DNA of 36,205 bases from Brasilonema sp. CT11. GTDB lineage: Bacteria; Cyanobacteriota; Cyanobacteriia; Cyanobacteriales; Nostocaceae. The stretch is taken from NCBI RefSeq assembly GCF_017982655.1, contig NZ_JABXYX010000078.1, positions 1 through 36,205 of the forward strand, given 5' to 3'. Below the pieces are notes generated by a model. The model did not search any database. It worked only from the letters and a program-made list of their open reading frames with translations, and had not been told where the DNA came from. Positions 16,236 through 35,442 of the stretch are shown here, piece after piece. Position 1 is the stretch's first letter. Each line of letters opens with the position of its first letter. The translations under genes were made by a program, and so were the position numbers.

Positions 16236-16475
16236 CAGGGAACAGGGAACAGGGAATAGGGAACAGGGAACAGTAAACAGTGAGTCCAGTGCTGCAGGAG
16301 GGGAGCCACTGCGTTGGACGGGTTTCCCGGCTTGAAGCATGTGGCGTTTTCCCGACCTAGGCATCTGGCGTTAGCGTTTGCGCAGCGCCCCCTTAGGGGC
16401 TAGCGGAACCGAAGGTTCTCCCCGAAGGGTGAACAGTGAAAACTGGTAACTGGTAACTGGTAACTGGTAACTGCT
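16236..16475. repeat. Heptamer arrays flanking a GC-rich palindromic repeat
   Basis: Three parts fill most of the scpB-ispD gap (16186-16611). First is a tandem array of AACAGGG units at about 16236-16273. Next is a GC-rich core (about 16274-16430) with GGTTTCCC, GCGTTTGCGCAGCGCC, CCCCTTAGGGGCTAGCGG and AACCGAAGGTTCTCCCC, which itself pairs internally. Last is a second array of CTGGTAA units at 16443-16473. The same core occurs in reverse orientation at 30880-31005, also edged by heptamers. These are the short tandemly repeated sequences known from heterocystous cyanobacteria. Confidence 0.9.
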
Positions 16476-22652: not shown

Positions 22653-23102
22653 ATGCAAAAGCAAACGATATCAACAAAACCTATTCGTTCACTGGAAGAT
22701 GCTCTTGAGCAGTGTCAGGTACTGGGTATGCGCGTTAGCCGTCAGCGTCGCTTTATCCTAGAACTACTTTGGGAAGCAAGAGAGCATCTTTCTGCCAGAG
22801 AAATTTATGATCGCCTGAATCACGAAGGTAAAGAGATTGGGCATACCTCTGTTTATCAAAATTTAGAAGCGTTATCCAGCCAAGGCATCATTGAATGTAT
22901 TGAACGCTGTGATGGACGTTTATACGGCAATATTAGTGATTCCCACAGTCATGTTAACTGCTTGGATACCAATCAAATATTGGATGTTCATGTAGAACTA
23001 CCAGAAGAATTTATCCGTCAAATTGAAGAAAAAACAGGAGTACGGATTACTGAGTATAGTATTAACTTTTATGGTTACCGTAATTCGCAAGAAAGCACAT
23101 GA
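22653..23102 (+). CDS. Fur-family metal/peroxide regulator, PerR (FurC)-like
   Basis: A 149-residue repressor with an N-terminal winged helix (RVSRQRRFILELLWEAREHL, IGHTSVYQNLEALSSQGII) and a C-terminal dimer and metal domain with DSHSHVNCLD (H98, H100, C103). Cysteines are C21, C82, C86 and C103; there are no CxxC pairs, so the usual structural zinc site of Fur and Zur is missing. It resembles what I remember of the PerR/FurC branch of cyanobacteria, which controls peroxide defence. The subtype is less certain than the family. It is monocistronic. The downstream gap (23103-23320) has no gene. Confidence 0.88.
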   Translation: MQKQTISTKPIRSLEDALEQCQVLGMRVSRQRRFILELLWEAREHLSAREIYDRLNHEGKEIGHTSVYQNLEALSSQGIIECIERCDGRLYGNISDSHSHVNCLDTNQILDVHVELPEEFIRQIEEKTGVRITEYSINFYGYRNSQEST

Positions 23103-23320
23103 AGGTTGATAGTGAGTTGCGCCCAAGTGCAACCACTATCTGTTACCGATTACCAGATTCACTTTAGTTATCGTCATCGCCTACAACCGTTTTACCATCT
23201 GCATTTTCAATGACTCCAGAAGGGAGTGGATTGTGAAATAGTTCCAAGCAAAGAAACTACGCTCATTTGTCAAGCTTATTTACGACTAAAGTAAAAAAGC
23301 TTGCGTTTTTTAAGCAGATT

Positions 23321-25120
23321 ATGAGCGATCGCCCTTTAAGATTATTGTTAATAGATCAGGACCCCATCTTCCGATTAGGGCTAAGAGTAGCTTTGGAAGA
23401 ATTCCCCAATTTACAGGTGGTATCGGAGGCAGAAACAGACACTGCTGCATTGCAGATTTTAGCCAAACTTGCACAAGAAAATCCAAACCAAGTCAATTTA
23501 GTCGTTTTGGAATTGGGGAATAGTCGCTTTGTTTCTAGCCAGCAACTGGGTTTACAACTCTGTCGCCATTTGAAAACCCAGTACCCCAATCTGCCATTAT
23601 TACTTTTAAGTTCTGTTCAAGAACAAGGACTACTTCTAGCAGCAAAAGCTGCTGGGGTCGATGCTTACTGTCCTAAAGGAACTCCTATTTCTGAATTAGT
23701 GACCATTATGCACGATGTGGTGGCAGGTGGTTCATCCTGGGATTGGGAGATGGGAAAACAGAACATGAGGATTTACACAAACGAGGATGCAGGATATGCT
23801 CTTGAAAACCTCACGTCTTCTGAACTTCCTTTTGCTCAGTTACGCAAGCGTCTACGGTTATCAGGGATTGGGTACATCAACGTCACTTTGACACAAGTGA
23901 CAGCACAATTACAAGTTCCCGGATTAGCATTATTAGATCGGGCAGTGTTAGCTGGGCAAAGACGAGAATTGCTAGCAGCGCGTTGGCTGCTGAATCGATT
24001 ATTAGCTTCATCACTGGAAAGGCGACAGGAGGTACAGTCGCATTCACGTAATGTTTCTGCAAGCAATAATTTCGCATCTGCACAGTTGCAGTCTCCGATA
24101 AATTCTCTGCCAAGTACTTCTGTTTCCAAATTTGACTCACCAGCTTCTGTGCTGAGTCCTAGATCATTACAAGCGGCATTATTTGCATCCTGTCTTACCA
24201 AACTTCAGCTTCCTTTACAAAATGTGACAGCTACCCCTTTAGAAATTGATATTTTACGTGAAGACAAAAAACGTGATTTACTTTATCTTATTTTACAAAA
24301 AATTGCAGACGCACTAGATGAAATGCGTGCTTCTGTGGTAGAGATAAGCCAATTATATGAATTAAAAAGTACTGTGTTGCTGGATGTATGGCAATCAGCA
24401 ACTACGAGCTTTTTTGGCAAATTTTATCGGGTGCGAGTAGACAATAATAATTTAGAAATAGTTACTTTTCTTCTGCAAGATGCTGCTGTGGTGCGAGCCG
24501 AAATCCTCAATAAAATTCCTCTGATTGAGGAGTTATTTTCTTATCTCCTATTTCAAAGAAATTTGCAAATTGATAATACTTCCTATCCAGCAGCTAGCTT
24601 TGAAGCAAAGGAGTATGCAGAAATGATTCTGGAGAATCTCTTGATTCAGGTAGGCAATGGTGTTATGCAACCGTTGCTCAACTCTTTAGCAGATGTAGAA
24701 GAAGTGAAGCAAAATTTTTATGATCGTCAATTGATTTCCATACGACAAATTGAACGATTTAGAAATAATTTGTCGTGGAGATATCGCATTAGGAATTATG
24801 TGAATGAGCCAAAAGCAATTTTTGAAAGCCGCTATGAGCTATTTGTCTTTGCACCTCGCGGTATTGCCACAACTTCCATTTATGCGCCGCGTGGACAAGA
24901 GTTAACGCAACTTTCTGGTATTCCGCTAGTGGTCACGCTAGCAATAGAATTTCGTGATGCGATCGCTCCTCGTATACAATCGCTCTTATCCTTGTTTGGC
25001 ACTGGTGTTGTCTTTGTTCTCACGCAAGTTATTGGTCGTGGTATCGGTTTGATTGGTCGTGGTATTCTTCAAGGAATTGGCAGTGTTTCTTTAAGGGAAA
25101 AAAACAATAAAAAGTTATGA
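23321..25120 (+). CDS. Response-regulator-like protein with C-terminal DUF3685 (Ycf55-like) domain
   Basis: A 599-residue protein. Residues 5-135 form a CheY-like receiver: RLLLIDQD gives acidic D12 and D14, LLLLSSVQ gives S97/S98 and CPKG gives K119. The phosphorylation site, normally Asp in a VVLDL strand, reads VVLELGN with E64. The centre is long and helical (about 170-470). The C-terminal part includes RGIATTSIYAPRGQEL and a hydrophobic end (SLFGTGVVFVLTQVIGRGIG), which I assign to DUF3685, a cyanobacterial family related to plastid Ycf55; its function is unknown. The start is the ATG at 23321, with an in-frame non-ATG extension upstream. It has no DNA-binding output domain. A strong hairpin follows the stop. 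Confidence 0.83.
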   Translation: MSDRPLRLLLIDQDPIFRLGLRVALEEFPNLQVVSEAETDTAALQILAKLAQENPNQVNLVVLELGNSRFVSSQQLGLQLCRHLKTQYPNLPLLLLSSVQEQGLLLAAKAAGVDAYCPKGTPISELVTIMHDVVAGGSSWDWEMGKQNMRIYTNEDAGYALENLTSSELPFAQLRKRLRLSGIGYINVTLTQVTAQLQVPGLALLDRAVLAGQRRELLAARWLLNRLLASSLERRQEVQSHSRNVSASNNFASAQLQSPINSLPSTSVSKFDSPASVLSPRSLQAALFASCLTKLQLPLQNVTATPLEIDILREDKKRDLLYLILQKIADALDEMRASVVEISQLYELKSTVLLDVWQSATTSFFGKFYRVRVDNNNLEIVTFLLQDAAVVRAEILNKIPLIEELFSYLLFQRNLQIDNTSYPAASFEAKEYAEMILENLLIQVGNGVMQPLLNSLADVEEVKQNFYDRQLISIRQIERFRNNLSWRYRIRNYVNEPKAIFESRYELFVFAPRGIATTSIYAPRGQELTQLSGIPLVVTLAIEFRDAIAPRIQSLLSLFGTGVVFVLTQVIGRGIGLIGRGILQGIGSVSLREKNNKKL

Positions 25121-25241: not shown

Positions 25242-26123
25242 CTAATCAACGGAAGTTGATACTAACTGCGTAGCTTGATTCCCAGACACTTCTGCATCCA
25301 ACTTGGGTGTTGGCATATGCTTCATTTCCCAAACTTTTAGCAGAATTAGGTATTCGTAGAAAGCTTGCAACGTACACCAAGTAAACCCAGCGCGTCCGTC
25401 TAAGCAGCCACCTAAGATAAAATACATATACAAAAAACGTATAAGTGGTCTGGCTGGTAAGCGCAAGGACAAATTTTTTAAGGCGCGGCGTCGTTCGACT
25501 TCTGACTTCCCAAAAAATAAATCTTTCCAGCTAACTGTTCCGTTTTGTAACTGATGAAGGGTTTCTCTGGCTTCATCTGTGGAGTAACGGTTGTGTTTAT
25601 CAATCCAGCGGCTGAACCCCTTGCCAGAAGTATAATGAGGGTATGTTTCTTTCAAAAAGCTTGTTGAACCGTCACAAACTTCTCGTTCTGTATGACCGTA
25701 GTCTGTAAACCAGACTTTACCGTGGCGGAAAAGGCGCAGTTGGTAACGAGGATATTGGGTACTGCGGCGAATCCAAGAATTCATGAACATGACGCGTTCA
25801 GCGGCGTAGTAACCGATGTAATCTGGATTACGACTCACTTTTTGGCATTCCGCGAACAGTTCTGGCGTCATGCGTTCGTCAGCTTCTAGAATATAAACCC
25901 ATTCATACTTGGGAGATATATTTTCTAGCATCCAAGTACGTTGACGACCGTGGCTTTCAAAAGCGTGCTGAACCACACGAACTGGATAGCGGTTGGCTAT
26001 TTCGACGGTGCGATCGCTACTGCATGAGTCTACAACAATAATGTCATCTGATAGCATCGCCGATTCAATACAAGCGGCGATGTCTATTTCTTCGTTATAA
26101 GTCAATATGTAAATTGAAAACAT
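25242..26123 (-). CDS. Glycosyltransferase family 2
   Basis: A 293-residue GT-A enzyme in the WaaE/KdtX-like branch of GT2. MFSIYILTYNEEIDI is the nucleotide strand, IIVVDSCSSDRTVEIA follows, and YILEADERMTPEL carries the acidic E80-A-D82 in the DxD position. A likely membrane-associated region is LIRFLYMYFILGGCLDGRAG. It adds a sugar to a lipid-linked or polysaccharide acceptor; the sugar is not known. The start is the ATG at 26123; the 24 residues upstream in frame are not family-like. It is the last gene of the minus-strand block that includes HpsJ and the pseudopilins, so it may act in the same polysaccharide, but a terminator hairpin separates it from HpsJ. Confidence 0.9.
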   Translation of the reverse strand: MFSIYILTYNEEIDIAACIESAMLSDDIIVVDSCSSDRTVEIANRYPVRVVQHAFESHGRQRTWMLENISPKYEWVYILEADERMTPELFAECQKVSRNPDYIGYYAAERVMFMNSWIRRSTQYPRYQLRLFRHGKVWFTDYGHTEREVCDGSTSFLKETYPHYTSGKGFSRWIDKHNRYSTDEARETLHQLQNGTVSWKDLFFGKSEVERRRALKNLSLRLPARPLIRFLYMYFILGGCLDGRAGFTWCTLQAFYEYLILLKVWEMKHMPTPKLDAEVSGNQATQLVSTSVD

Positions 26124-26228
26124 TCGCAATCTTAAATTGATATGACTTGTCTTGTGCGGAATTTTACTTTGTTCTGGTAAATATATGCAAGTCAACTAAG
26201 ATCATCTTCATCAGGAATTAATAAAAGT

Positions 26229-26270
26229 GGCAGTATGAGCTTATGAGAATGTATGATGCATCGTACTGCC
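26229..26270 (-). terminator. Terminator after the HpsJ-like gene
   Basis: On the minus strand a stem of GGCAGTACGA against TCATACTGCC (26261-26270 with 26229-26238, one G-U pair) is followed by CACTTTTATT, a T-rich run. It begins 15 bases after the HpsJ stop, so it fits a rho-independent terminator that would separate this gene from the GT2 gene. Confidence 0.65.
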
Positions 26271-26284
26271 TTCAAAATAATGGA

Positions 26285-27118
26285 CTAGCGTGCAGGCATT
26301 TTGCGTTTACCACCTAGAGCATTCAGACCTTTTAATCCTGACCAGCCGATAATAATGTAAGCAATAGACAACAGCAAACTGCCTATAACAATTCTCAAAC
26401 CGGGCTTCCAATTGTCTTCAGCTTGTTTTATCAGTTCATCGCGGCGAGCGCGAATTTGCCCTAATCTTTGATTTGCCAGTTGCTGTGGATCACTTTGTTG
26501 GGCTATGAATTTGTCAAGTTCTTGAGGATTGGCTTTGAATTTCTTGAGCAAATCTTTTGTCGCTTGGGGAATATTGGGGTTATTCAGTGCTTGCTGATAA
26601 CGCTGATCATCTTGAAGAAGTTCAGTATATTGTGCTTTGACTTGGGCTTTCTGCTTCTCTACAGATGCTTTGACTTGATCGTTACCAAGTTGAGCTTGCA
26701 CTTGGTTAAGCTGACCTTTCAATTGGTTTTCTGCTAGTTGTGCATCTCTGGTGATTTGATCAACTGTTTGAGTTCTTTGATTAATGATATTCCCAGCATG
26801 GACAGGAGCAATAATCAAAAAGAGTAATCCCAAGATACTTGATATCACAAGAGCTGGCATTCTCAAGTCTATAGACTGGCGTTGAGTACCATCATCAAAA
26901 CTGTCAATCCAATAGCCAGTAAATAGCATACCCAATGCGACTAATGGCACGACTCCTCGATCAACCAAACTTGCTGCCCATCTGAGTTGCAACAGCCTAT
27001 CGGTTGGGCTGAAGTCAAGGCTTATAATCAAAAAATCAATCAAAAAGGACAATATTAAAATTATCCCAATCACTTTGAGTGTGCGGGCTGCGATCGCAGC
27101 ACCTAAACGGTTATTCAT
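26285..27118 (-). CDS. hpsJ: HpsJ-like membrane protein (hormogonium polysaccharide)
   Basis: A 277-residue protein with four predicted membrane helices: VIGIILILSFLIDFLIIS (about 17-34), VVPLVALGMLFTGYW (56-70), LVISSILGLLFLIIAP (90-105) and IVIGSLLLSIAYIIIGW near the C-terminus. Between helices 3 and 4 is a 125-residue soluble Gln/Lys-rich coiled coil (QLAENQLKGQLNQVQAQL; VKASVEKQKAQVKAQYTEL). This matches what I recall of HpsJ family proteins encoded near hps genes in Nostoc and implicated in hormogonium polysaccharide production. HpsJ variants also occur with cyanobacterial exosortases, so the exact role is open. Strand and neighbours support the hps role. The 27119-27447 gap upstream may carry its own promoter. 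Confidence 0.72.
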   Translation of the reverse strand: MNNRLGAAIAARTLKVIGIILILSFLIDFLIISLDFSPTDRLLQLRWAASLVDRGVVPLVALGMLFTGYWIDSFDDGTQRQSIDLRMPALVISSILGLLFLIIAPVHAGNIINQRTQTVDQITRDAQLAENQLKGQLNQVQAQLGNDQVKASVEKQKAQVKAQYTELLQDDQRYQQALNNPNIPQATKDLLKKFKANPQELDKFIAQQSDPQQLANQRLGQIRARRDELIKQAEDNWKPGLRIVIGSLLLSIAYIIIGWSGLKGLNALGGKRKMPAR

Positions 27119-27447
27119 AGTTTTTCGTTTTGTAGTTGACTGAAGTCAATATTTTATATAAAGGTACTGGAATATTGTTCCTATTCGGCTACCTATTATT
27201 TCTGTTTGAGAGATTCTTTTTTGGGTGATATATTTTCTACCCTTTAATGTAAGCCACACCACGGTAGCATCTCGATTCTAGGTTGTCTTCAGAAAAACCC
27301 TTGTGTAAAAAAAAACAAAATTAACACTGACAACGTTGATAGCTGTAGTAAGTATTCCATTAGAGGGGTTTGAGATACATTTTTATGGTGTGATGGGTGG
27401 GGTGTAGGGCAAAAAATCACTACAGACTCTCGTCACAACAAATCAGT
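27119..27447. other. Gene-free stretch between HpsJ and the TIGR04282-type gene
   Basis: These 329 bases hold no gene that I can support. There is an A-run (27308-27318), a short GGTGGGGTGTAGGGC piece of the GGTGTAGG minisatellite type, and otherwise AT-rich sequence. It probably contains the HpsJ promoter. Confidence 0.5.
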
Positions 27448-28089
27448 TTAGTGCTTAAGTTTGAGAATCTCTTCCCAAATTGGCAAATCCTCTGGACGAT
27501 CAATATCAGCCAAGTGAGGTAAGTCAGCGACTGATAAATTTAACGTCTGAGCAATACTTATAGTCTGATGGAACACTTGAGAGGTTCCCCAGTCTATATT
27601 GATAAATAATTCTGGCACAAGACGTTGCAAACCAATTAAGTAATAGCCACCATCTACCGCAGGACCAAGGACAAGCTCGCATTGCACCAGTCGTGCAAAA
27701 GCTTCTGCTAAAATCTGGTTATTGACACCAGGGCAGTCGGTACCGATAGTCACGACTTTTTCTGCACCTGATTGAAAGGCATTCAAGAAAGATTGTGCCA
27801 TCCGCAAACCCAAATCTCCTTGCCCTTGAGGTTGGTAAATTAAGTCATATCCTAGCCACTCTTGCATAAGTTGCAAATTCCCACCTGCAAAGCGTACTTC
27901 AAAAGATATGGCGGAAGTCTTTTGCAACTGTTTGACTTGAGATAGTGTGTGCTCTGTCATTTGACGCTGAAGATTTGCCGCACCTTCAGTTCCCAAAGCA
28001 GGTATCAGTCGAGTTTTTGTCTTGCCTGGTTCTGGATAGCGCGTGAAAATGATCAGATGCTGTTTTGCTGTTTCTGGTAGATTTAGCAC
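27448..28089 (-). CDS. TIGR04282-type glycosyltransferase (DUF2064)
   Basis: A 213-residue GT-A-like protein opening HLIIFTRYPEPGKTKTRLIP. KVVTIGTDCPGVNNQI supplies the acidic motif, and LVLGPAVDGGYYLIGL is the hallmark loop of the family. TIGR04282 is named for arsenosugar biosynthesis, but members are common without arsenic genes, and none is seen here. Its position after HpsD suggests a part in building the secreted polysaccharide instead. The start is set at the GTG at 28089. The longer frame to 28212 is translated intergenic repeat (residues such as FLRALCVLAVRFF), so it is rejected. Confidence 0.83.
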   Translation of the reverse strand: MLNLPETAKQHLIIFTRYPEPGKTKTRLIPALGTEGAANLQRQMTEHTLSQVKQLQKTSAISFEVRFAGGNLQLMQEWLGYDLIYQPQGQGDLGLRMAQSFLNAFQSGAEKVVTIGTDCPGVNNQILAEAFARLVQCELVLGPAVDGGYYLIGLQRLVPELFINIDWGTSQVFHQTISIAQTLNLSVADLPHLADIDRPEDLPIWEEILKLKH

Positions 28090-28142
28090 GAGATACCTTC
28101 TTGAATCAATTAAAAATATAGCAATCCTAGATAGGTAGTGAA

Positions 28143-28200
28143 CAAAAAAACGAACCGCCAAGACGCAAAGAGCACGAAGAAAAGAAAGAGAAGAGGGAGA
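28143..28200. repeat. Dispersed intergenic repeat between hpsD and the TIGR04282 gene
   Basis: The sequence ACGAACCGCCAAGACGCAAA followed by GAGCACGAAGAAAAGAAAGAG matches a motif common in cyanobacterial intergenic DNA (from memory). Read on the minus strand it gives the pseudo-coding stretch removed from the downstream gene. It lies in the 28090-28233 gap. Confidence 0.6.
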
Positions 28201-28233
28201 AGGTGTGTACATCCTATTTAGGAAGGCTGTATA

Positions 28234-28788
28234 TTAATAGCAATACTTACCACCGTTGTCGGGTTTATCGTTTTCTTTTGCCGTTCTCATTGCACCTAAG
28301 ATTGTAGAAATATAGACGCAACGCTTAGCTTTACCACCAGACTTACTAGATAAAGTTATTCGTCCTAACGGGGGTTTCCTAATATTACCTTTGTCATCAA
28401 ATTCGATGTGCCTAACATCATTTGATTGTTGTAAGCTTGTTTCCGCATCCAAGCGCACATTTGGATCTAAATTATTCCAAATAGCGTTAACTGGGTTAAC
28501 TGTAGCTTGATGAACTGCCCATTGCACAATATCGTTTTGTTCGCGAAAACTAACTTGCCAGGTTAATTTATTTTTGGTAGCTTGGCTTTGAGCTTGGCGT
28601 ATAGCAAGATAAACTTCGTTTTGAGCAGTGTTGAGGCGCTGAGTATCGACAAAAGCTAGCCAACTTGGAATTGATATGGCAGCTAAGATACTAATTATGA
28701 CAACACTTACTAAAAGTTCTAGTAGCGTGAAGCCATTGCTAGAACAATTCTGCTTATCCTTGAACTTATTTAGCAGATAAGAACCCAT
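28234..28788 (-). CDS. hpsD: Pseudopilin, HpsD-like (GspH type)
   Basis: A 184-residue prepilin-like protein. After a short basic leader is the prepilin peptidase site G19^FTLLE with glutamate at +5, then a hydrophobic helix VVIISILAAISIPSWLAF. A soluble beta-rich domain follows, with a C-terminal cysteine pair (KRCVY ... KYCY) that may form a disulfide. It would be cleaved by a PilD-type peptidase and assembled in a type II/type IV-like filament. Its ATG at 28788 overlaps the end of hpsC by 23 bases, suggesting translational coupling; a longer start at 28839 is possible. HpsB/C/D are the pseudopilins of the Nostoc hps locus, and the D label follows gene order. Confidence 0.8.
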   Translation of the reverse strand: MGSYLLNKFKDKQNCSSNGFTLLELLVSVVIISILAAISIPSWLAFVDTQRLNTAQNEVYLAIRQAQSQATKNKLTWQVSFREQNDIVQWAVHQATVNPVNAIWNNLDPNVRLDAETSLQQSNDVRHIEFDDKGNIRKPPLGRITLSSKSGGKAKRCVYISTILGAMRTAKENDKPDNGGKYCY

Positions 28789-29701
28789 TTTCTTGGACTC
28801 GTATACTTGCCTGAGGAAAATATGTTTTATTATTCTCATTTAAATCTATATTATTGTTTTGAAGACGAGCGAGGGAATTACCACGTAAATAAATTTCTGC
28901 TACGGTATTTTCTGAATTGACACAAACGTAAAAGCCTCGTGTTCTAACATTTTTAGTTGCAACAGCATCTCCACTGCCATAAAATTGTGGCAACTGTTGA
29001 CCTATTGTGCAATTAGAAGGTGCTGGATTGGTATTATCATTTATTGTAGTTTGATCAATGTAATCAACTAAAGGCTCAATCTTTTGTGTGTACTTCTCAC
29101 CACTCTTTTTTGTCCATTGATTCATCTTACTCTTAAGATTGCCTAAGCCTTGCAGATTAAATATCTGAAAACCTTTGTCTCGCTCATTGTCTTTCTTATC
29201 AGTCTTAGGAGGCTCATAGCCATCGCTTATTTGAAATCTACCGATTCGAGCAGCTTTAGACCATGTAGAGTCATTATCTTTAATCAAATAATAGGCAACT
29301 AAAGAGTAGAAAAAGGTATTATCTTTCAAGATAGTAGAATTTTCTTTTGAAACAAATGTTCGCTTCCAAAAGACAAGAACAGGAAAAAATGTATTTTTAT
29401 CACCATACCTTGGTAGTTGTTGCCTGATTGCATTAATGCCATCAGCATCATATATATAGACTGACTGTTGCAAGTCTCGCGCGATATAGTCAAGTGCTGC
29501 TTTGATTTCTTGCTCGGTATCTGCCTTTGCTTGCTCTTGTCGTTCAGTTGTCATAATATTAATCATGAATCCTAGCAAAGGTGTGATAACAAGAGTAGCT
29601 ATGATGATGCCTACCAGTAACTCAATCAAGGTAAAGCCATCACATTTATTTTTCTGGCGAAAAAGCTTTAACTGCTTAATGAAAAGCCATAATAAATTCA
29701 T
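28766..29701 (-). CDS. hpsC: Pseudopilin, HpsC-like
   Basis: A 311-residue prepilin with the cleavage site DG22^FTLIELLVG (glutamate at +5) and a hydrophobic stretch IIIATLVITPLLGFMIN. The soluble part is large for a pseudopilin: ALDYIARDLQQSVYIYD resembles GspJ/PilW-type proteins, followed by a charged insert (PPKTDKKDNERDKGF) and a C-terminal part with cysteines in CTIGQQLPQF and GFYVCVNS. The start is the ATG at 29701; in-frame codons upstream reach a TTG inside hpsB. It begins 32 bases after the hpsB stop. Order and class match hpsC of the Nostoc hormogonium polysaccharide locus. Confidence 0.82.
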   Translation of the reverse strand: MNLLWLFIKQLKLFRQKNKCDGFTLIELLVGIIIATLVITPLLGFMINIMTTERQEQAKADTEQEIKAALDYIARDLQQSVYIYDADGINAIRQQLPRYGDKNTFFPVLVFWKRTFVSKENSTILKDNTFFYSLVAYYLIKDNDSTWSKAARIGRFQISDGYEPPKTDKKDNERDKGFQIFNLQGLGNLKSKMNQWTKKSGEKYTQKIEPLVDYIDQTTINDNTNPAPSNCTIGQQLPQFYGSGDAVATKNVRTRGFYVCVNSENTVAEIYLRGNSLARLQNNNIDLNENNKTYFPQASIRVQENGFLSAK

Positions 29702-29733
29702 AATATTGATTTGCTCGGAATAGTTACCGAGAT

Positions 29734-30441
29734 TTAGCAATGAGACTTAGGATTAGGATTAGTAGCAGGAGGTTTCAGGCGCTGACAGAAATCACTAAAT
29801 GTTGTTACTTTACTTGATATTTCTGTTGTCATTTCTACTAAAGGTGCTTGTTTTGCTGTTAAACCTGTCCCTTTAGTGAAAGTTTCTGCTTGTTTAATGT
29901 CTGGGTCTTTCGATGCCTTTAATGTGATGCTAGGCTTATTGAAAGCGTCTGCTCTGTAGACTCGCAACCCCAATCTATAGCCATCCTCGGGATTGTTGGA
30001 AGTAGGGTTATACCCAAATCCCTGAACAATCATGTCTTTGAAGTTATCACTTGTACAACCTCCCGTTTCTCCATCGACGCAATATAACTGAGATGATGGA
30101 GTTGCAGGAGAGATTTCACATAAGCCAGTTCCAGTTGTAGGACAAGTCAGGGTTCCTGAGGGTGCATCTGGCGAAGGTGAATCGGTCGTTGTTGCCGCGC
30201 TGTTCGTTATGATGGGTGGTGGTGGAATTGTGCTTGATTTAATGCCATCAATATAAGTTTGAGCAGCGTTAGTTGCTAACTCAATACGCCTTGCTTGTAA
30301 GCGTGTTGCGACAGAGAAGATAATAAGAGGTGCGATCGCCACTAGTAAAATGCCAACAACAACGACTGCTATTAATGATTCAATGATGGTAAAACCTGAC
30401 TGACTAGATAAAGATGTTTGTTGCTGTTTGTGGTGAATCAT
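29734..30441 (-). CDS. hpsB: Pseudopilin, HpsB-like
   Basis: A 235-residue pseudopilin with site SG16^FTIIESLIAV (glutamate at +5) and membrane helix VVVVGILLVAIAPLIIF. The mature domain has a Ser/Thr/Pro-rich linker (SPSPDAPSG) and cysteines in TLTCPTTGTGLCE and LYCVDGETGGCTS, plausible disulfides outside the cytoplasm. The start is the ATG at 30441. Upstream lies a heptamer array rather than a recognisable promoter, and the gene is separated from hpsA by the four-helix-bundle gene. It would be part of the secretion filament for hormogonium polysaccharide. Confidence 0.82.
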   Translation of the reverse strand: MIHHKQQQTSLSSQSGFTIIESLIAVVVVGILLVAIAPLIIFSVATRLQARRIELATNAAQTYIDGIKSSTIPPPPIITNSAATTTDSPSPDAPSGTLTCPTTGTGLCEISPATPSSQLYCVDGETGGCTSDNFKDMIVQGFGYNPTSNNPEDGYRLGLRVYRADAFNKPSITLKASKDPDIKQAETFTKGTGLTAKQAPLVEMTTEISSKVTTFSDFCQRLKPPATNPNPKSHC

Positions 30442-30445
30442 AACA

Positions 30446-30480
30446 TTATCAGTTATCAGTTATCAGTTATCAGTTATCAG
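30446..30480. repeat. TTATCAG heptamer array
   Basis: Five head-to-tail copies of TTATCAG lie between the start of hpsB and the stop of the four-helix-bundle gene. A perfect 7-bp period is the short tandemly repeated type of heterocystous cyanobacteria. Confidence 0.9.
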
Positions 30481-30490
30481 AGATTATAGT

Positions 30491-30823
30491 TTACTTGAGG
30501 ATTGAGAAAAGGATTTTTGCTATCTCTTCAGCATCTTCATGGATACTGCTAAATGCTTGAGCATCAATATACCCTGTGTCTTTTAAAAGGGACAACCAAT
30601 ACTTACTTTCAAGACATTCTTTGTAAGCAATAGAAATTTTTGCAGAAAATTCTGCTGGTGATATAGCTCCATTTGCTTCCGCAATATTGGCTCCAATTGA
30701 TGTTCCACTTATAATTAATTGTTTTGATAAAATAAATTCTTTTTTCTCTTGAGTCAAATATTTATAAGCATTTACAATCCTGATAGCAAACTTATACGCC
30801 TTCTCATATACCAAACTGTTCAT
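30491..30823 (-). CDS. Four-helix-bundle protein (23S rRNA intervening-sequence family)
   Basis: A 110-residue all-helical protein: LVYEKAYKFAIRIVNAYKYL, QLIISGTSIGANIAEANGA, AKISIAYKECLESKYWLSLL and AEEIAKILFSILK are four amphipathic helices. The SxGANIAEA helix start is the mark of the S23/TIGR02436 family, first found in intervening sequences of 23S rRNA genes. The biochemical role is unknown. It starts at the ATG at 30823. It is in the same orientation as, and lies between, hpsA and hpsB, with heptamer repeats on both sides, so it looks like an insertion. Confidence 0.9.
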   Translation of the reverse strand: MNSLVYEKAYKFAIRIVNAYKYLTQEKKEFILSKQLIISGTSIGANIAEANGAISPAEFSAKISIAYKECLESKYWLSLLKDTGYIDAQAFSSIHEDAEEIAKILFSILK

Positions 30824-30831
30824 AGCTTACT

Positions 30832-31013
30832 GTTCACTGTTCACTGTTTACTGTTCACTGTTCACTGTTCACCCTATGGCTAACGCCACGCCTTACGGCT
30901 ATCGGGGAGAACCTTCGGTTCCGCTAGCCCCTAAGGGGGCGCTGCGCAAACGCGCTCCGCCAGATGCTACGGAGGGAAACCCTCATCAAGCACTGGACTC
31001 ACTGTTCACTGAT
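30832..31013. repeat. Heptamer array plus GC-rich palindromic repeat
   Basis: ACTGTTC-type heptamers (about 30832-30873) run into a core with TAACGCCACGCCTTACGGC, GGAGAACCTTCGGTTCCGC, TAGCCCCTAAGGGGGCGCTG and CTACGGAGGGAAACCCTC, then another CACTGTTCACTG. It is the reverse complement of the element at 16236-16440. It ends exactly where the hpsA stop begins. Confidence 0.9.
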
Positions 31014-34000
31014 TTAAGAACATGTACCGCGTTGATCTTGGCTAATGGTGTAGTTACCATTAGGATCTTGAGCACACAACAAAGTTTTTATCCAAGCATC
31101 GTCTCGTCCGACTTCTCTGTAAAACTCATTCGGCTTGTTTGTTGCGGGTGTTGTAAAGTGTAGAGAGAATAAGTCAGGTGGCTGATTCAGCAAGGCTGTA
31201 TCATAACTCCAGAAACGATTGGGCGGAGTAAAAAAAGACGTACGATTTAGATTTGGATTGGAAGGATTGCTTCCATTAATAACTGTTTGCCAAGGAGCAG
31301 TGGCATAATTACTGTGTTTAAATTGGATAAAAGAACCAGCTACTATGTGGCTTACGCCTTCCCAGCGTTCTAAGTAACGTACAAAGTTTTCCAAACCACC
31401 ATTGCTTTCTGTTGGGCGTCCCGGCGTGTTACCTTGAGCGAAGATGAGATTTGTTTGTGTGTTTGTGGCAGTTTGCATCGAATTATAGTCACTATCTTCA
31501 CGAAACCTAAAGCGAAAATTATCAGATAAAACTGTAATTGCATCAGCTACAACTACTGCTGAACGCCAAGTTTCGCCAGTGTTGCAACCAGGAAATTGAC
31601 CTGGGCGACAGCCGAAGTTAGAATTTAGTGATTGACGTGCGTAGAATTTATTACTCCAGTCCTTTTCCCCTTTTAAGGAGTTGTCTGTGAACTCTTCTTG
31701 GGTGTGAACATTGAAATTTCCTTTGATGTAAACTGGCACGTTAGATACTAAAATGAGTCCTTTTTCTTCTGAGTTATAGGTAGCGTTACGGCTTAAGTTA
31801 CTCCCATTAATCAGCATAATGGCATTTGGTCGGCGAGTTGAATCTAATTTGAAGTCAGTAGCACTAACATCTAAATTGTTGGGTTCACTATCGTCGGGGA
31901 GTGCATCATCACGAGTGGTGTAAATAATTCCACTATTTGGAAATAGAAACTCACCACCACTTTTTGATTTTCTGCGTAACAAATCCAAATCTAAGATAGT
32001 GGCGCGAATTTCTAACGGTTCACGCGATTCAACTGCTTTAATCTCTCTTGCATCAAGAAAAGCAGTTTCCATAATAGCGCCATGAGGAATAACAGTATCT
32101 GTAGGATTACCGATAGTACCGTCTAAAATTTTCAAAGCGCAAATAGCAGAATCAACTGCTGATTGTTCTGCAAGGGTAAGAGGTTGACTAGCTGTGATTT
32201 TTTTCCAAGCATTTTGAAGTGGTTTATTCACCAAGCGTCCGTTTGGGTATTTCAGCTGTGCTTGGTAATTCAGCACATTCTCGTAACCTGTGGTTGAGAG
32301 AGATGAAGCTGAGTAGACAACACCGTTGTTAGAGTCACCTGGATTATTACTAATCTTAGGTAGCCCAGTTAAGTCTCTGTTTGTATTTCTTAAGCTAACG
32401 TCTGGTAAATCTTTCTGGTTTCTGGCTGTTGTGCTATTTGTAGGGTTGTAATAGCTGCTGACACAAGCAATTGGTTTTTGATAGTCAGTTGGAATCTTTG
32501 GATTGTAGGAGTCATCTTGGTAGTGATAAACTGCTGTAGCCCGCATTCGTAGATAAGGTGTCTTCTCATCGGGCATAGTATCTGGTGGATCTGCTATGGT
32601 ATCTAGTTTTGGATCTGCGATCGCACTAGCAAATTGAGCACTACCGCCACCAGAAGTGTAACGACTAGATAAATAAATTCCTGCACCTGTGACAACTCGC
32701 AAACCTCCGACGACATCCAAAGAAGTTTGTGGTTTTTGTGCTGCTGACTTTTCCCAAAACTCGTCTCGACCTGTGGCTTCCAAATCCTCTAACTGGTATG
32801 CTTGGGAGAAGCGCTTACGAGTTACAGTACTATTCTTTCCCTTGCTATCAACATCCCATTCCTTACCAGTAATAGTCTGTCCTTCGTCTGGTGAACTGAG
32901 AAATTTGCCTTTGGTTGTGTCATACCATAATTGAGGTAAATTATTGCCAACTAAAATGCGATCGCCTATTTTTTGCTCTTTATCTGCTTTTGCTTGTTCT
33001 ACTGGTTCTGTTGCAGGTAGATAAAGTTTACTACCGTTATCTTTAATTCCTATTTCGGCATAATTAGTAGCAGTTTTACCATCAGCAGGATTGAAGGGAA
33101 ACACCCATTCATCCACTGGTCTTAAAGAGTTTCCATTTCCTTGAAGAGGACTATTTGTTTCATAGTCGGAACTTCGATATTTTAGTGGATTACTACCTTG
33201 TGGTATTTCGGCGTATGGAACACGACGTGTTCTTTTTTTAAAGTAAGCTTTTAGCTTTTTATCACGAACTTTAGCAGGATTTAAAGTGTAGTCCTCTGCT
33301 AAATCTCGTTTTATTTCCTGTTGGACTTCATCAGGAAGGTCTGCGTTATTTGGATATGCAGTATTTGTTGCTTGCACTAACCTGCCAATTCGTTTTGTAT
33401 ACGCCTCATCATTATAAGCTGCCGTGTTTCCGTAAACAGATGTAGGTACAGTTTTATTTGTGTTGTTTATAACCTGACTTTCAATTGTGCTGTTAGGTAC
33501 ATAAGATTGATCAAACAAATCTACTTGCACATCACCATGACTGGAATTGTCTGTTACTCTACTATCTATTACATTTCCAGCGACAATAATTTTGCTATTT
33601 ACCTCTTTGAAATAGCATGAATTTGGACTACTAACTAGATAGAACTTGATAGGCTGAGCCAGTCTTGTTGTTAGCAAATTACCATTTGTGAAGACACGTC
33701 CATTTAGACTGATACCTTCTTCAGAAGCAATTTCTAAATCATCTTCATAGACAACCCCATTGTTAGTGAGGGGTATTCTTTCTTGCTCTCGATCTTGCTG
33801 ATATTCTAGAGCGACAAAGCCTTTATTACCTCTAAAAATTTCATATTTATTAGTATTTAATATTGTTAAGTCTGTAATTGGCACAGTCGTACTATAAACA
33901 AAAATACTTTTTTTTAGCTTTTCACCGACTTTATACCAACCATTAGTACTTACTAAGTTCGCGCTAGTGGTAGCTAAATTTTGACATTCGTTACCAACAG

Positions 34001-34631
34001 TATCTGTGTCCATCGGTTGCGTTCTTGCTTTTAAGAAATTTCCGGGTTGATTACTAGTTGGAGTCCGAAAGTAAAGACCATAGAGAGTGTAACTATCAAA
34101 CTTACCGTTATTGTCCGTATCTACAGGATATTTCCAAACAGTTTGTAGAGTCTCGTCGCCTTGAACAAGTTTTAACTGTGTCTCATCACCAAAAGTAAAT
34201 TCGTTAAGGTTATTATTGATAACTTGTTCCAGTGAAAAATCTGAAGGAATTGAGGACTCTAACCTAGAATCTCCAAATAACTGTTCTATTTTTGCTTTTG
34301 CTCTTTCAATAGCAGGGTTAGCTGCATTCAGGACAGCCTCATTCACTCGGACATTACTAGCATTTTTTGCCCTTTCAAAAGACCGAAATAAAATAGCAGT
34401 TGTTATTAACACAACTACCAATGCTACCATTGCGACAGTTGGTAACACAAAACCAGCATTTACACTTGACTGTTGTTTTTTCTTATTGACTAGTATTGCC
34501 CGTAATAGCTGAAGAATTTGTTTTTTAATTGTAGATACAAATATTTTACTAATTTGTCTATAAAATCTCTTGATTTTCTTTAATCTCCAACGATAGTGAA
34601 ACATAAGTAGTTGACTGCTAAAATTTCTCAT
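31014..34631 (-). CDS. hpsA: HpsA-like giant prepilin-type protein
   Basis: A 1205-residue protein recognised as HpsA-like from its place ahead of the pseudopilins and its design. A basic cytoplasmic leader of about 60 residues ends in VNAG60^FVLPTVAM. A hydrophobic helix (ALVVVLITTAILF) follows, then about 1,100 residues of exported, Asn/Thr/Ser-rich, low-cysteine sequence without membrane spans. Unlike HpsB-D, position +5 after the cleavage glycine is Thr, not Glu (FVLPT). The C-terminal part has repeated short beta motifs (LSRNATYNSEEKGLILVSN). In Nostoc punctiforme, hpsA belongs to the locus required for hormogonium polysaccharide and motility. I start at ATG 34631 (34604 is an alternative). 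The promoter lies in the repeat-rich 34632-35606 gap. Confidence 0.8.
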   Translation of the reverse strand: MRNFSSQLLMFHYRWRLKKIKRFYRQISKIFVSTIKKQILQLLRAILVNKKKQQSSVNAGFVLPTVAMVALVVVLITTAILFRSFERAKNASNVRVNEAVLNAANPAIERAKAKIEQLFGDSRLESSIPSDFSLEQVINNNLNEFTFGDETQLKLVQGDETLQTVWKYPVDTDNNGKFDSYTLYGLYFRTPTSNQPGNFLKARTQPMDTDTVGNECQNLATTSANLVSTNGWYKVGEKLKKSIFVYSTTVPITDLTILNTNKYEIFRGNKGFVALEYQQDREQERIPLTNNGVVYEDDLEIASEEGISLNGRVFTNGNLLTTRLAQPIKFYLVSSPNSCYFKEVNSKIIVAGNVIDSRVTDNSSHGDVQVDLFDQSYVPNSTIESQVINNTNKTVPTSVYGNTAAYNDEAYTKRIGRLVQATNTAYPNNADLPDEVQQEIKRDLAEDYTLNPAKVRDKKLKAYFKKRTRRVPYAEIPQGSNPLKYRSSDYETNSPLQGNGNSLRPVDEWVFPFNPADGKTATNYAEIGIKDNGSKLYLPATEPVEQAKADKEQKIGDRILVGNNLPQLWYDTTKGKFLSSPDEGQTITGKEWDVDSKGKNSTVTRKRFSQAYQLEDLEATGRDEFWEKSAAQKPQTSLDVVGGLRVVTGAGIYLSSRYTSGGGSAQFASAIADPKLDTIADPPDTMPDEKTPYLRMRATAVYHYQDDSYNPKIPTDYQKPIACVSSYYNPTNSTTARNQKDLPDVSLRNTNRDLTGLPKISNNPGDSNNGVVYSASSLSTTGYENVLNYQAQLKYPNGRLVNKPLQNAWKKITASQPLTLAEQSAVDSAICALKILDGTIGNPTDTVIPHGAIMETAFLDAREIKAVESREPLEIRATILDLDLLRRKSKSGGEFLFPNSGIIYTTRDDALPDDSEPNNLDVSATDFKLDSTRRPNAIMLINGSNLSRNATYNSEEKGLILVSNVPVYIKGNFNVHTQEEFTDNSLKGEKDWSNKFYARQSLNSNFGCRPGQFPGCNTGETWRSAVVVADAITVLSDNFRFRFREDSDYNSMQTATNTQTNLIFAQGNTPGRPTESNGGLENFVRYLERWEGVSHIVAGSFIQFKHSNYATAPWQTVINGSNPSNPNLNRTSFFTPPNRFWSYDTALLNQPPDLFSLHFTTPATNKPNEFYREVGRDDAWIKTLLCAQDPNGNYTISQDQRGTCS

Positions 34632-34636
34632 AAAAA

Positions 34637-34720
34637 AACCGCAGATGCACGAACTTTGCACACAGATAGTTTATCTGCGTACCCTGCGGGAAGTCGCCCA
34701 GAGGGCGTCTACATCTGCGG
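34637..34720. repeat. Inverted-repeat element upstream of hpsA
   Basis: AACCGCAGATG (34637-34647) and CATCTGCGGTT (34710-34720) bracket 62 bases that include ATAGTTTATCTGCGTACC and GTCGCCCAGAGGGCGTC. It sits just ahead of the hpsA ATG, so it is probably transcribed in the leader. Related AGAGGGC pieces occur in the repeats at 3027 and 20643. Confidence 0.6.
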
Positions 34721-35029: not shown

Positions 35030-35226
35030 GGGGTGTAAGGGTGCAGGGGTGTAGGGGGAGTAATTGGTGGGGGAAATGATTTATTCGTTAGTTTCGACAA
35101 CGAGCGAAATTTAGGGGAAAAAAGTAAAACACTCTTACCCCTTACACCCTCACACCCTTACACCCCTTCTTCCTCTCCCTTGAACCCTACACCCTTACAC
35201 CCTTACACCCCTACACCCCTACACCC
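35030..35226. repeat. GGTGTAGG/ACACCCCT minisatellite in inverted halves
   Basis: The left part (about 35032-35061) reads GGGTGTAAGGGTGCAGGGGT. The right part (about 35131-35226) is its reverse-strand form, many copies of TTACACCC and CTACACCC with 8-base periods. Together the halves can pair. Short fragments of the unit occur at 17387 and 27398. Confidence 0.85.
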
Positions 35227-35261: not shown

Positions 35262-35442
35262 AGAAAAACACTGGAGTATCCCTGTTCTCCAGTGCTTAAA
35301 GGCAACAACTCTTACTCAAAATTAGAATACCCAGGAAAATATAATTAGAATTGGAGAAAAAAAAGCACCGGGTACGGATAAACCCCAGTGCTCAAGGACG
35401 ACTTACACGATTTACTATCAATCCAGAATTAGAATACCCATA
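35262..35442. ncRNA. Duplicated hairpin unit, candidate tandem small RNAs
   Basis: Two related units follow each other. Unit A has CACTGGAG...CTCCAGTG (35269-35294) and then ATTAGAATACCCA (35321-35333). Unit B has GCACCGGG...CCCCAGTGC (35365-35391) and then ATTAGAATACCCA (35428-35440). After each hairpin comes GCTYAAGG and an AC-rich stretch. Stem bases change in a compensating way (GGAG/CTCC against GGGG-type pairs). TAGAAT could be a -10 box in each unit, as in promoter-bearing sRNA arrays such as NsiR1; identity with a known RNA is not established. Confidence 0.45.

Follow-up and report, generated by a model that had tools for sequence, protein, structure and literature searches.

What kind of hps locus does Brasilonema sp. 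CT11 carry? The 36,205-nucleotide stretch analysed here (the window) belongs to a genome of 8.79 Mb in 411 contigs, and holds on its minus strand a cluster of seven genes of the hormogonium polysaccharide (HPS) type between positions 25242 and 34661. An earlier note on this DNA had described the cluster as a secretion module with an HpsA-like protein, the pseudopilins HpsB, HpsC and HpsD, HpsJ, and two enzymes that might be new parts of the system. We read it differently. With a probability of roughly 0.86, it is the Brasilonema/Scytonema-clade form of the known hps locus, with the order hpsA-B-C-H-I-J-K, from which hpsD and hpsE-F-G have been lost.

The list of open reading frames (ORFs), together with profile searches, confirmed the cluster, its coordinates and its order. 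Families were called with Pfam and NCBIfam profiles at their curated cut-offs. HpsA, HpsB, HpsC, HpsJ and the TIGR04282 enzyme all exceeded these, so that the assignment to the hps type was upheld. The first gene, hpsA (31014-34661), encodes 1215 residues from the first GTG or 1205 from the ATG at 34631; the 1205-residue prepilin-like protein noticed earlier is indeed HpsA (NF038301, 1499.8 bits, cut-off 400). It is followed by hpsB (29734-30441; NF038303, 253.3 bits, cut-off 150), by hpsC (28766-29740; NF038304, 398.1 bits, cut-off 200) and by a gene for a GspH-like pseudopilin, hpsH (28234-28839; PF07963 and PF12019), whose true start is likely nearer 28788. The prepilin sites of these three were read as GFTIIE, GFTLIE and GFTLLE, respectively, and PF07963 (N_methyl, the class III prepilin N-terminus) was above cut-off in each, in agreement with the earlier description of three prepilin sites. 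The closest of the eight named HpsC relatives found was that of Brasilonema angustatum (86%).

The remaining three genes encode a TIGR04282/DUF2064 nucleotide-diphospho-sugar transferase-like enzyme at the hpsI position (27448-28212; 225.7 bits, cut-off 134), the membrane protein HpsJ (26285-27118; NF050014, 322.5 bits, cut-off 260) and a GT2 glycosyltransferase, hpsK (25242-26195; PF00535, 53.5 bits, cut-off 23.3), whose place directly after hpsJ is conserved. The hpsI ORF is probably over-long at its start, since its domain begins at about residue 50; a solved relative is 3cgx, a putative nucleotide-diphospho-sugar transferase (E 9.1e-29). For hpsK, the true start is probably the ATG near 26123. 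TIGR04283 was also considered for this GT2 and was ruled out (32.1 bits against a cut-off of 182).

To which genes of the known system do the two enzymes correspond? We drew up maps of 86 loci that surround hpsC homologues: the window, the eight named relatives and 77 stretches from genome searches, the latter being nearly all of the better matches (weaker pilin-only matches, G112 and G054:C13 were left out). After L002, L003, L004, L005 and L007 had been dropped as duplicates of L096, L095, L102, L099 and L097, respectively, 81 loci remained. The usual Nostocaceae-type order was A, B, C, a GspH-like gene, then between one and four ORFs about 315-345 residues long, another GspH-like gene, the TIGR04282 gene, hpsJ and the GT2 gene. 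In L094, the one such locus whose middle ORFs were scanned, these proved to be a pair of HpsE-family enzymes, which score 519.0 and 471.3 bits (cut-off 300), and a TuaG-like GT2, giving A-B-C-D-E-F-G-H-I-J-K. On the hps strand and within the stretch examined, the TIGR04282 gene was present in 34 of the 81 loci, hpsJ in 33 and the GT2 gene in 32, with all three in 30. A failure of this neighbourhood to recur among relatives was looked for and did not appear.

The N. punctiforme locus is described as encoding the pseudopilins HpsB, C, D and H and the glycosyltransferases HpsE, F, G, I and K, with HpsA and HpsJ of unknown function (PMC4284469). Its genes hpsA-hpsK are tabulated as Npun_F0066 to F0078, with hpsI, J and K as Npun_F0075, F0077 and F0078 (PMC10581220). 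The window has the same families in the same order for A, B, C, H, I, J and K, the comparison being one of order and class and not of aligned N. punctiforme sequences. By their position and class, the TIGR04282 enzyme is hpsI and the GT2 is hpsK; the names H, I and K are given because order and class match, and not from alignment to the N. punctiforme proteins. Both genes do recur beside pseudopilins, as the earlier note had proposed, but they are known, named parts and not new ones. Unlike the N. punctiforme locus, the window has no hpsD and no hpsE-F-G, and it carries an additional ORF between hpsA and hpsB.

The absence of hpsD depends on the identity of the third pseudopilin, which had been called HpsD. 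A tree of 116 GspH-like sequences was built as a quick tree without bootstraps, copies shorter than 110 residues after trimming being excluded. It divided into a D side of 47 and an H side of 69 (SH-aLRT of the split, 98). In loci with two copies, the first fell on the D side and the second on the H side in 35 of 40 cases; the exceptions were four H/H loci and one H/D locus, and four of these five lay outside the family. Copies directly before the TIGR04282 gene were on the H side in 33 of 34 cases, L103 being the exception. In the window, as in all 11 loci of the Brasilonema/Scytonema clade, there was a single GspH-like copy and it was on the H side. By its place in this tree, the third pseudopilin groups with HpsH, not with HpsD. 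It may be noted that two contigs, C93 of G005 (L060) and C486 of G044 (L061), carry the hpsA-B-C-D/H quartet twice in tandem.

The clade loci comprised the window, L096, L098, L102, L095, L099, L109, L097, L006, L008 and L009. The hpsD gene was gone in all 11, and in 10 of them nothing E-F-G-like lay between hpsC and hpsH. The HpsE model, which also detects the HpsF-like copy of L094, was then applied to whole genomes. In the window's own genome no protein was above cut-off, the best of all 46 candidates scoring 100.7 bits against 300. None was found in the other six genomes of the genus or in G155 among the best 31 candidates per genome, and none in G357 and G358, the genomes of L006 and L008, where all candidates were scored. 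Hence 10 of the 11 clade genomes had no HpsE above cut-off, including G149 (99% complete, in 3 contigs) and Scytonema NIES-4073, which is titled nearly complete. HpsN, a further enzyme of this pathway, was kept: it scored 626.5 bits (cut-off 425) at G000:C173 in the window's own genome, and was above cut-off in 49 of 59 relatives, including all eight clade genomes in that set. Among the 35 genomes in that set that belong to the same family, 32 had HpsN, and the eight of these 32 that had no HpsE above cut-off were exactly the clade members. Another genome of the family, G022, likewise lacks D-G genes in the hpsC-hpsH interval, and a search of its whole genome gave no HpsE match at E<=1e-60, so the loss of hps genes may have occurred more than once.

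In N. punctiforme, hpsE-G are reported to be required for HPS and motility (PMC12188702, PMC10581220), and an hpsE-G mutant is described as HPS-deficient, with movement restored by added HPS (PMC12188702). Therefore, the clade either manages without hpsE-G or replaces them. The window locus was accordingly classed as a variant and not as a full hps member, since HpsD, HpsE, HpsF and HpsG were not found in it.

Several results weigh against this account. Within the tree of GspH-like copies, 50 of the 113 inner forks were weak. The loss is not uniform across the wider clade, since HT-58-2 (L009/G359) retains one HpsE in its locus and another above cut-off nearby. The HpsE and HpsG searches of relatives scored the best 31 or 37 first-look candidates per genome, and the HpsE of G161, scored as present, has six stops. 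On a separate contig, G155 has a 127-residue HpsG-like piece of 61% identity, which may be a true hpsG. The N-terminus of HpsA reads G-F-V-L-P-T by eye, and G51, F52 and P55 are invariant in 24 homologues, which suggests a prepilin-like protein; position +5, however, is threonine and not glutamate. Pfam gave no family, and no pilin match, for the window's HpsA. For the 24 homologues it gave nine families with one member each (best E 0.038), none of them credible, and the one pilin match, to ComGE in a single homologue, was at chance level (E 0.28). The AlphaFold model of HpsA, made from eight close sequences, was unusable (mean pLDDT 30, pTM 0.30). The reading of HpsA as a minor pilin of the GspK/PilX-like kind thus rests on its N-terminus as judged by eye. 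A search of the HpsA profile against PDB sequences returned six rows, all with E >= 0.46, that is, at chance level.

The G155 piece also bears on the idea that hpsE-G were moved and not lost, lying diverged or unassembled elsewhere in the genomes, so that the usual polysaccharide would still be made. The genomes are drafts, and elsewhere HpsE can be found away from its usual place: just outside the hps block in G062 and on another contig in G068. Displacement of this kind nevertheless fits poorly with the lack of HpsE above cut-off in 10 of 11 clade genomes, G149 and NIES-4073 included. In addition, the best HpsG match in the window's own genome was only 34% identical and, at 184.6 bits, no better than a second match in the query's own genome besides the query itself (184.9 bits). 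We hold this alternative to be improbable and retain the loss of hpsD and hpsE-G as the better account.

Could the locus instead be in decay, left over in a lineage for which HPS has ceased to be necessary? Four genes are missing, and in G150, a metagenome-assembled genome of the same genus (L099/L005), hpsA is divided between two frames, one of 543 and one of 989 residues, which may be a real break or an assembly error. Moreover, a foreign-looking ORF lies inside the operon. This ORF (30491-30823, minus strand; PF05635/TIGR02436, 101 bits in Pfam), of the four-helix, 23S intervening protein (IVP)-like type and absent from the earlier note, lies in the hpsA-hpsB spacer, which is 36 bp long in the near relative L096, where the ORF is absent; L098 and L102 have shortened copies. 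We judged it to be outside the hps system. The state of the genes that remain speaks against decay: all seven are open frames, the matches of HpsB, HpsC, HpsJ and the TIGR04282 enzyme span nearly the whole of their models, the DNA of hpsJ and hpsK is 92-98% identical to that of four relatives, and HpsN is kept. That the locus is a remnant is scarcely credible.

The description of the cluster as a secretion module is a separate matter. In one version of it, the pseudopilins would act as a type II secretion-like piston that pushes out HPS, and the enzymes would be new parts dedicated to it. That HPS leaves through the pilus pore was an early proposal in the literature (PMC12288463, PMC12188702), and at least one of hpsI, J and K lay on the same strand within the examined stretch in 36 of the 81 loci. 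In the other 45, however, none of the three lay beside the pilin set within that stretch (some stretches end at contig ends, and the count does not extend to the rest of the genomes). It follows that the pilin and I-J-K modules are not always linked. Unlike a type II secretion system, the window's seven hps proteins included no secretin, motor ATPase or platform protein, as judged by Pfam and NCBIfam matches. A Wzx/Wzy-type locus with a Wza-like protein has been proposed as the exporter from co-occurrence, which is not proof (PMC12288463, PMC12188702). A 2025 review refers to minor pilin genes and leaves the HPS export route open (PMC12288463). A piston is distinctly improbable, and the term secretion module overstates what the seven proteins and the review support.

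Cyanobacterial clusters with HpsA, B, C and GspH-like proteins in which no hpsI, J or K was seen in the examined stretch (L073 and L075-L086 among them) differ from the window in that respect, and resemble it in that two or three pseudopilins accompany a large HpsA-like protein. Their HpsA-like proteins scored about 610-720 bits against the profile, compared with about 1280-2000 bits for HpsA in hps-type loci where the protein is unbroken. Another cluster without hpsI-J-K beside it is the pilA9-type one of Synechocystis. Two loci, in G062 (L074) and G152 (L119), have HpsA, B and C of the distant type, though hpsI-J-K (in L074) or HpsE genes (in both) are close by; here it is possible that the pilin set was replaced beside a glycan locus that was kept.

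How might a reduced hps locus work? The genes hpsA-D are reported to depend on SigJ and less on SigF, and may have a role in export together with the type IV pilus (PMC6495340). In the mechanism that we propose, HpsB, HpsC and HpsH would be minor pilins and HpsA their giant, prepilin-like partner. From these, the type IV pilus machine and the general prepilin peptidase, both encoded elsewhere, would assemble a priming or tip complex, which would couple pilus activity to the handling of polysaccharide. HpsI and HpsK would take part in building the glycan, and HpsJ would be a membrane partner. Where E-G are missing, the polysaccharide of the clade may be simpler or different, or other glycosyltransferases may substitute.

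A second question concerns what lies upstream of hpsA, where two short units follow one another in tandem on the minus strand. Both have the same plan: a word resembling the J-box, then a short stretch that is conserved, then a G+C-rich hairpin with a run of T; no ORF was seen inside either by eye. Unit 1 (35357-35439) has the word GGGTATTCT at 35439-35431 and a predicted RNA from about 35424 to 35357 with a terminator-like hairpin (fold -20.4 kcal/mol). Unit 2 (35264-35332) has the same word at 35332-35324 and a predicted RNA from about 35317 to 35264, again with such a hairpin (-16.0 kcal/mol). The units end 83 and 69 bases, respectively, from the start of GGGTATTCT. They scored 82.4 and 80.9 bits with R1, a covariance model built from 20 units, these two among them. 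The SigJ J-box is given as GGGaAtacT (PMC6495340). Either GGGTATTCT or GGGCATTCT occurs in all 20 units, and each keeps 7 of the 9 J-box letters, including GGG, A5 and T9.

A second pair is present in the same genome at G000:C298:35347-35521. When 217 genomes of the family were searched by BLAST, the pair was found only in five genomes of the same genus, the window's included, each with a second pair elsewhere that was 78-85% identical; in G149 the two units of the second pair are further apart. The R1 model found four units in each of the five genomes, as expected. Outside these it gave three weak matches (28-30 bits), each in a different genome, and none in the remaining 209. In these searches, scoring was confined to the 3 or 22 highest first-look candidates of each genome, and the covariance search used stricter filters, with some weak matches lost. 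The units were not found in G150 and G151, which are of the same genus. In the four relatives, the units at the hpsA site are 95-99% identical to those of the window, whereas DNA identity is 85-90% for hpsC and 87-95% for hpsA. In two of these relatives no match was found for the sequence immediately upstream of the units, and most of that downstream does not align. This contrast holds only against hpsA, hpsC and the flanks, since hpsJ and hpsK are about as conserved as the units.

The predicted structure was examined further. None of 13 pairs showed two-sided change, so the stem has no independent support from covariation, and two copies of unit 1 (L131, L133) have a damaged terminator stem. 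A helix proposed by RNAalifold at columns 5-19 takes in the putative promoter word and probably has no meaning. A generic scan found no excess of terminators (9 against 8.4) and missed both hairpins because its loop limit was 8 and their loops are of 10-11. Rfam gave no match for the units at E<=1. The J-box was also tried as a general promoter element of hpsA: in the frame 100-800 bases before the prepilin site, leaving out the window's two sites and those of L096 and L098, 8 of 54 loci had a J-box-like word on the hps strand against 15 on the opposite strand, and with no enrichment the idea was dropped. Since GGGNATNCT is over-represented in the whole window (11 against 3.06 expected), single matches to it mean little, and the case for the units rests on their conservation.

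Two readings of these units were considered. Being co-oriented with hpsA and placed between it and a divergent gene, they could, in place of small RNAs, be attenuators or leader terminators arranged in tandem, through which hpsA expression is set. However, a ribokinase gene follows the second pair in four of the five genomes (a hydrolase gene precedes it in three), about 1.5 kb of flank showed no hps gene, and the distance from the nearer unit to the start of the listed hpsA ORF varies from 322 to 745 bases across loci while the units themselves stay 95-99% identical. Attenuation is thus a somewhat unlikely explanation. (Ribokinase and hydrolase, the latter ending in a PEP-CTERM-like tail, were named by eye; at L131 neither was found.) Tentatively, and at clearly less than even odds, we suggest that the units are a new small-RNA family, driven by the hormogonium sigma factor SigJ, that would regulate slime and motility genes in hormogonium development much as NsiR1 may be said to act in heterocysts, and that would accompany a rebuilt hps pathway free of HpsE-G.

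NsiR1 of Nostoc PCC 7120 is described as a small RNA (about 60 nt) whose 12 copies lie in tandem upstream of hetF, with promoters of their own (PMC9045159). The window's predicted units are likewise tandem, with their own promoter-like words, and upstream of a developmental gene, the likeness being one of layout and not of sequence. They differ from NsiR1 in having J-box-like and not DIF1 promoters, in sharing the orientation of hpsA, NsiR1.1 being antisense to hetF, and in numbering two copies at a site against twelve. A narrow literature search brought up no described example of small-RNA control of hormogonia. They are the newest element here and an uncertain one, their small-RNA nature being predicted.

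Some features of the surroundings may be mentioned. Convergent with hpsK lies a gene for a DUF3685 protein with a response-regulator-like N-terminus (22653-25120, plus strand), with a 149-residue ORF, Fur-like by eye, near it; both recur in the clade loci. These downstream neighbours differ from those of the canonical-type L094, where an unassigned ORF, nusB and ftsY come after the cluster. Short intergenic tandem repeats with units of 7 or 8 bases occur at 30446-30480, 30815-30872, 35129-35226, 16236-16273 and 16441-16473, and the IVP-like ORF sits amid heptamer repeats.

The cluster is therefore a known system in reduced form, and the clade-wide loss of D-G makes it a useful variant. The hpsE-G genes are treated as enzymes required for the motility polysaccharide. 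A clade that has the pilin genes, I-J-K and HpsN but not E-G sets the pilin module apart from some of the glycan module, and amounts to a natural experiment on which sugars and enzymes gliding requires. The twin units, for their part, offer a precise and testable candidate for small-RNA control of hormogonia.

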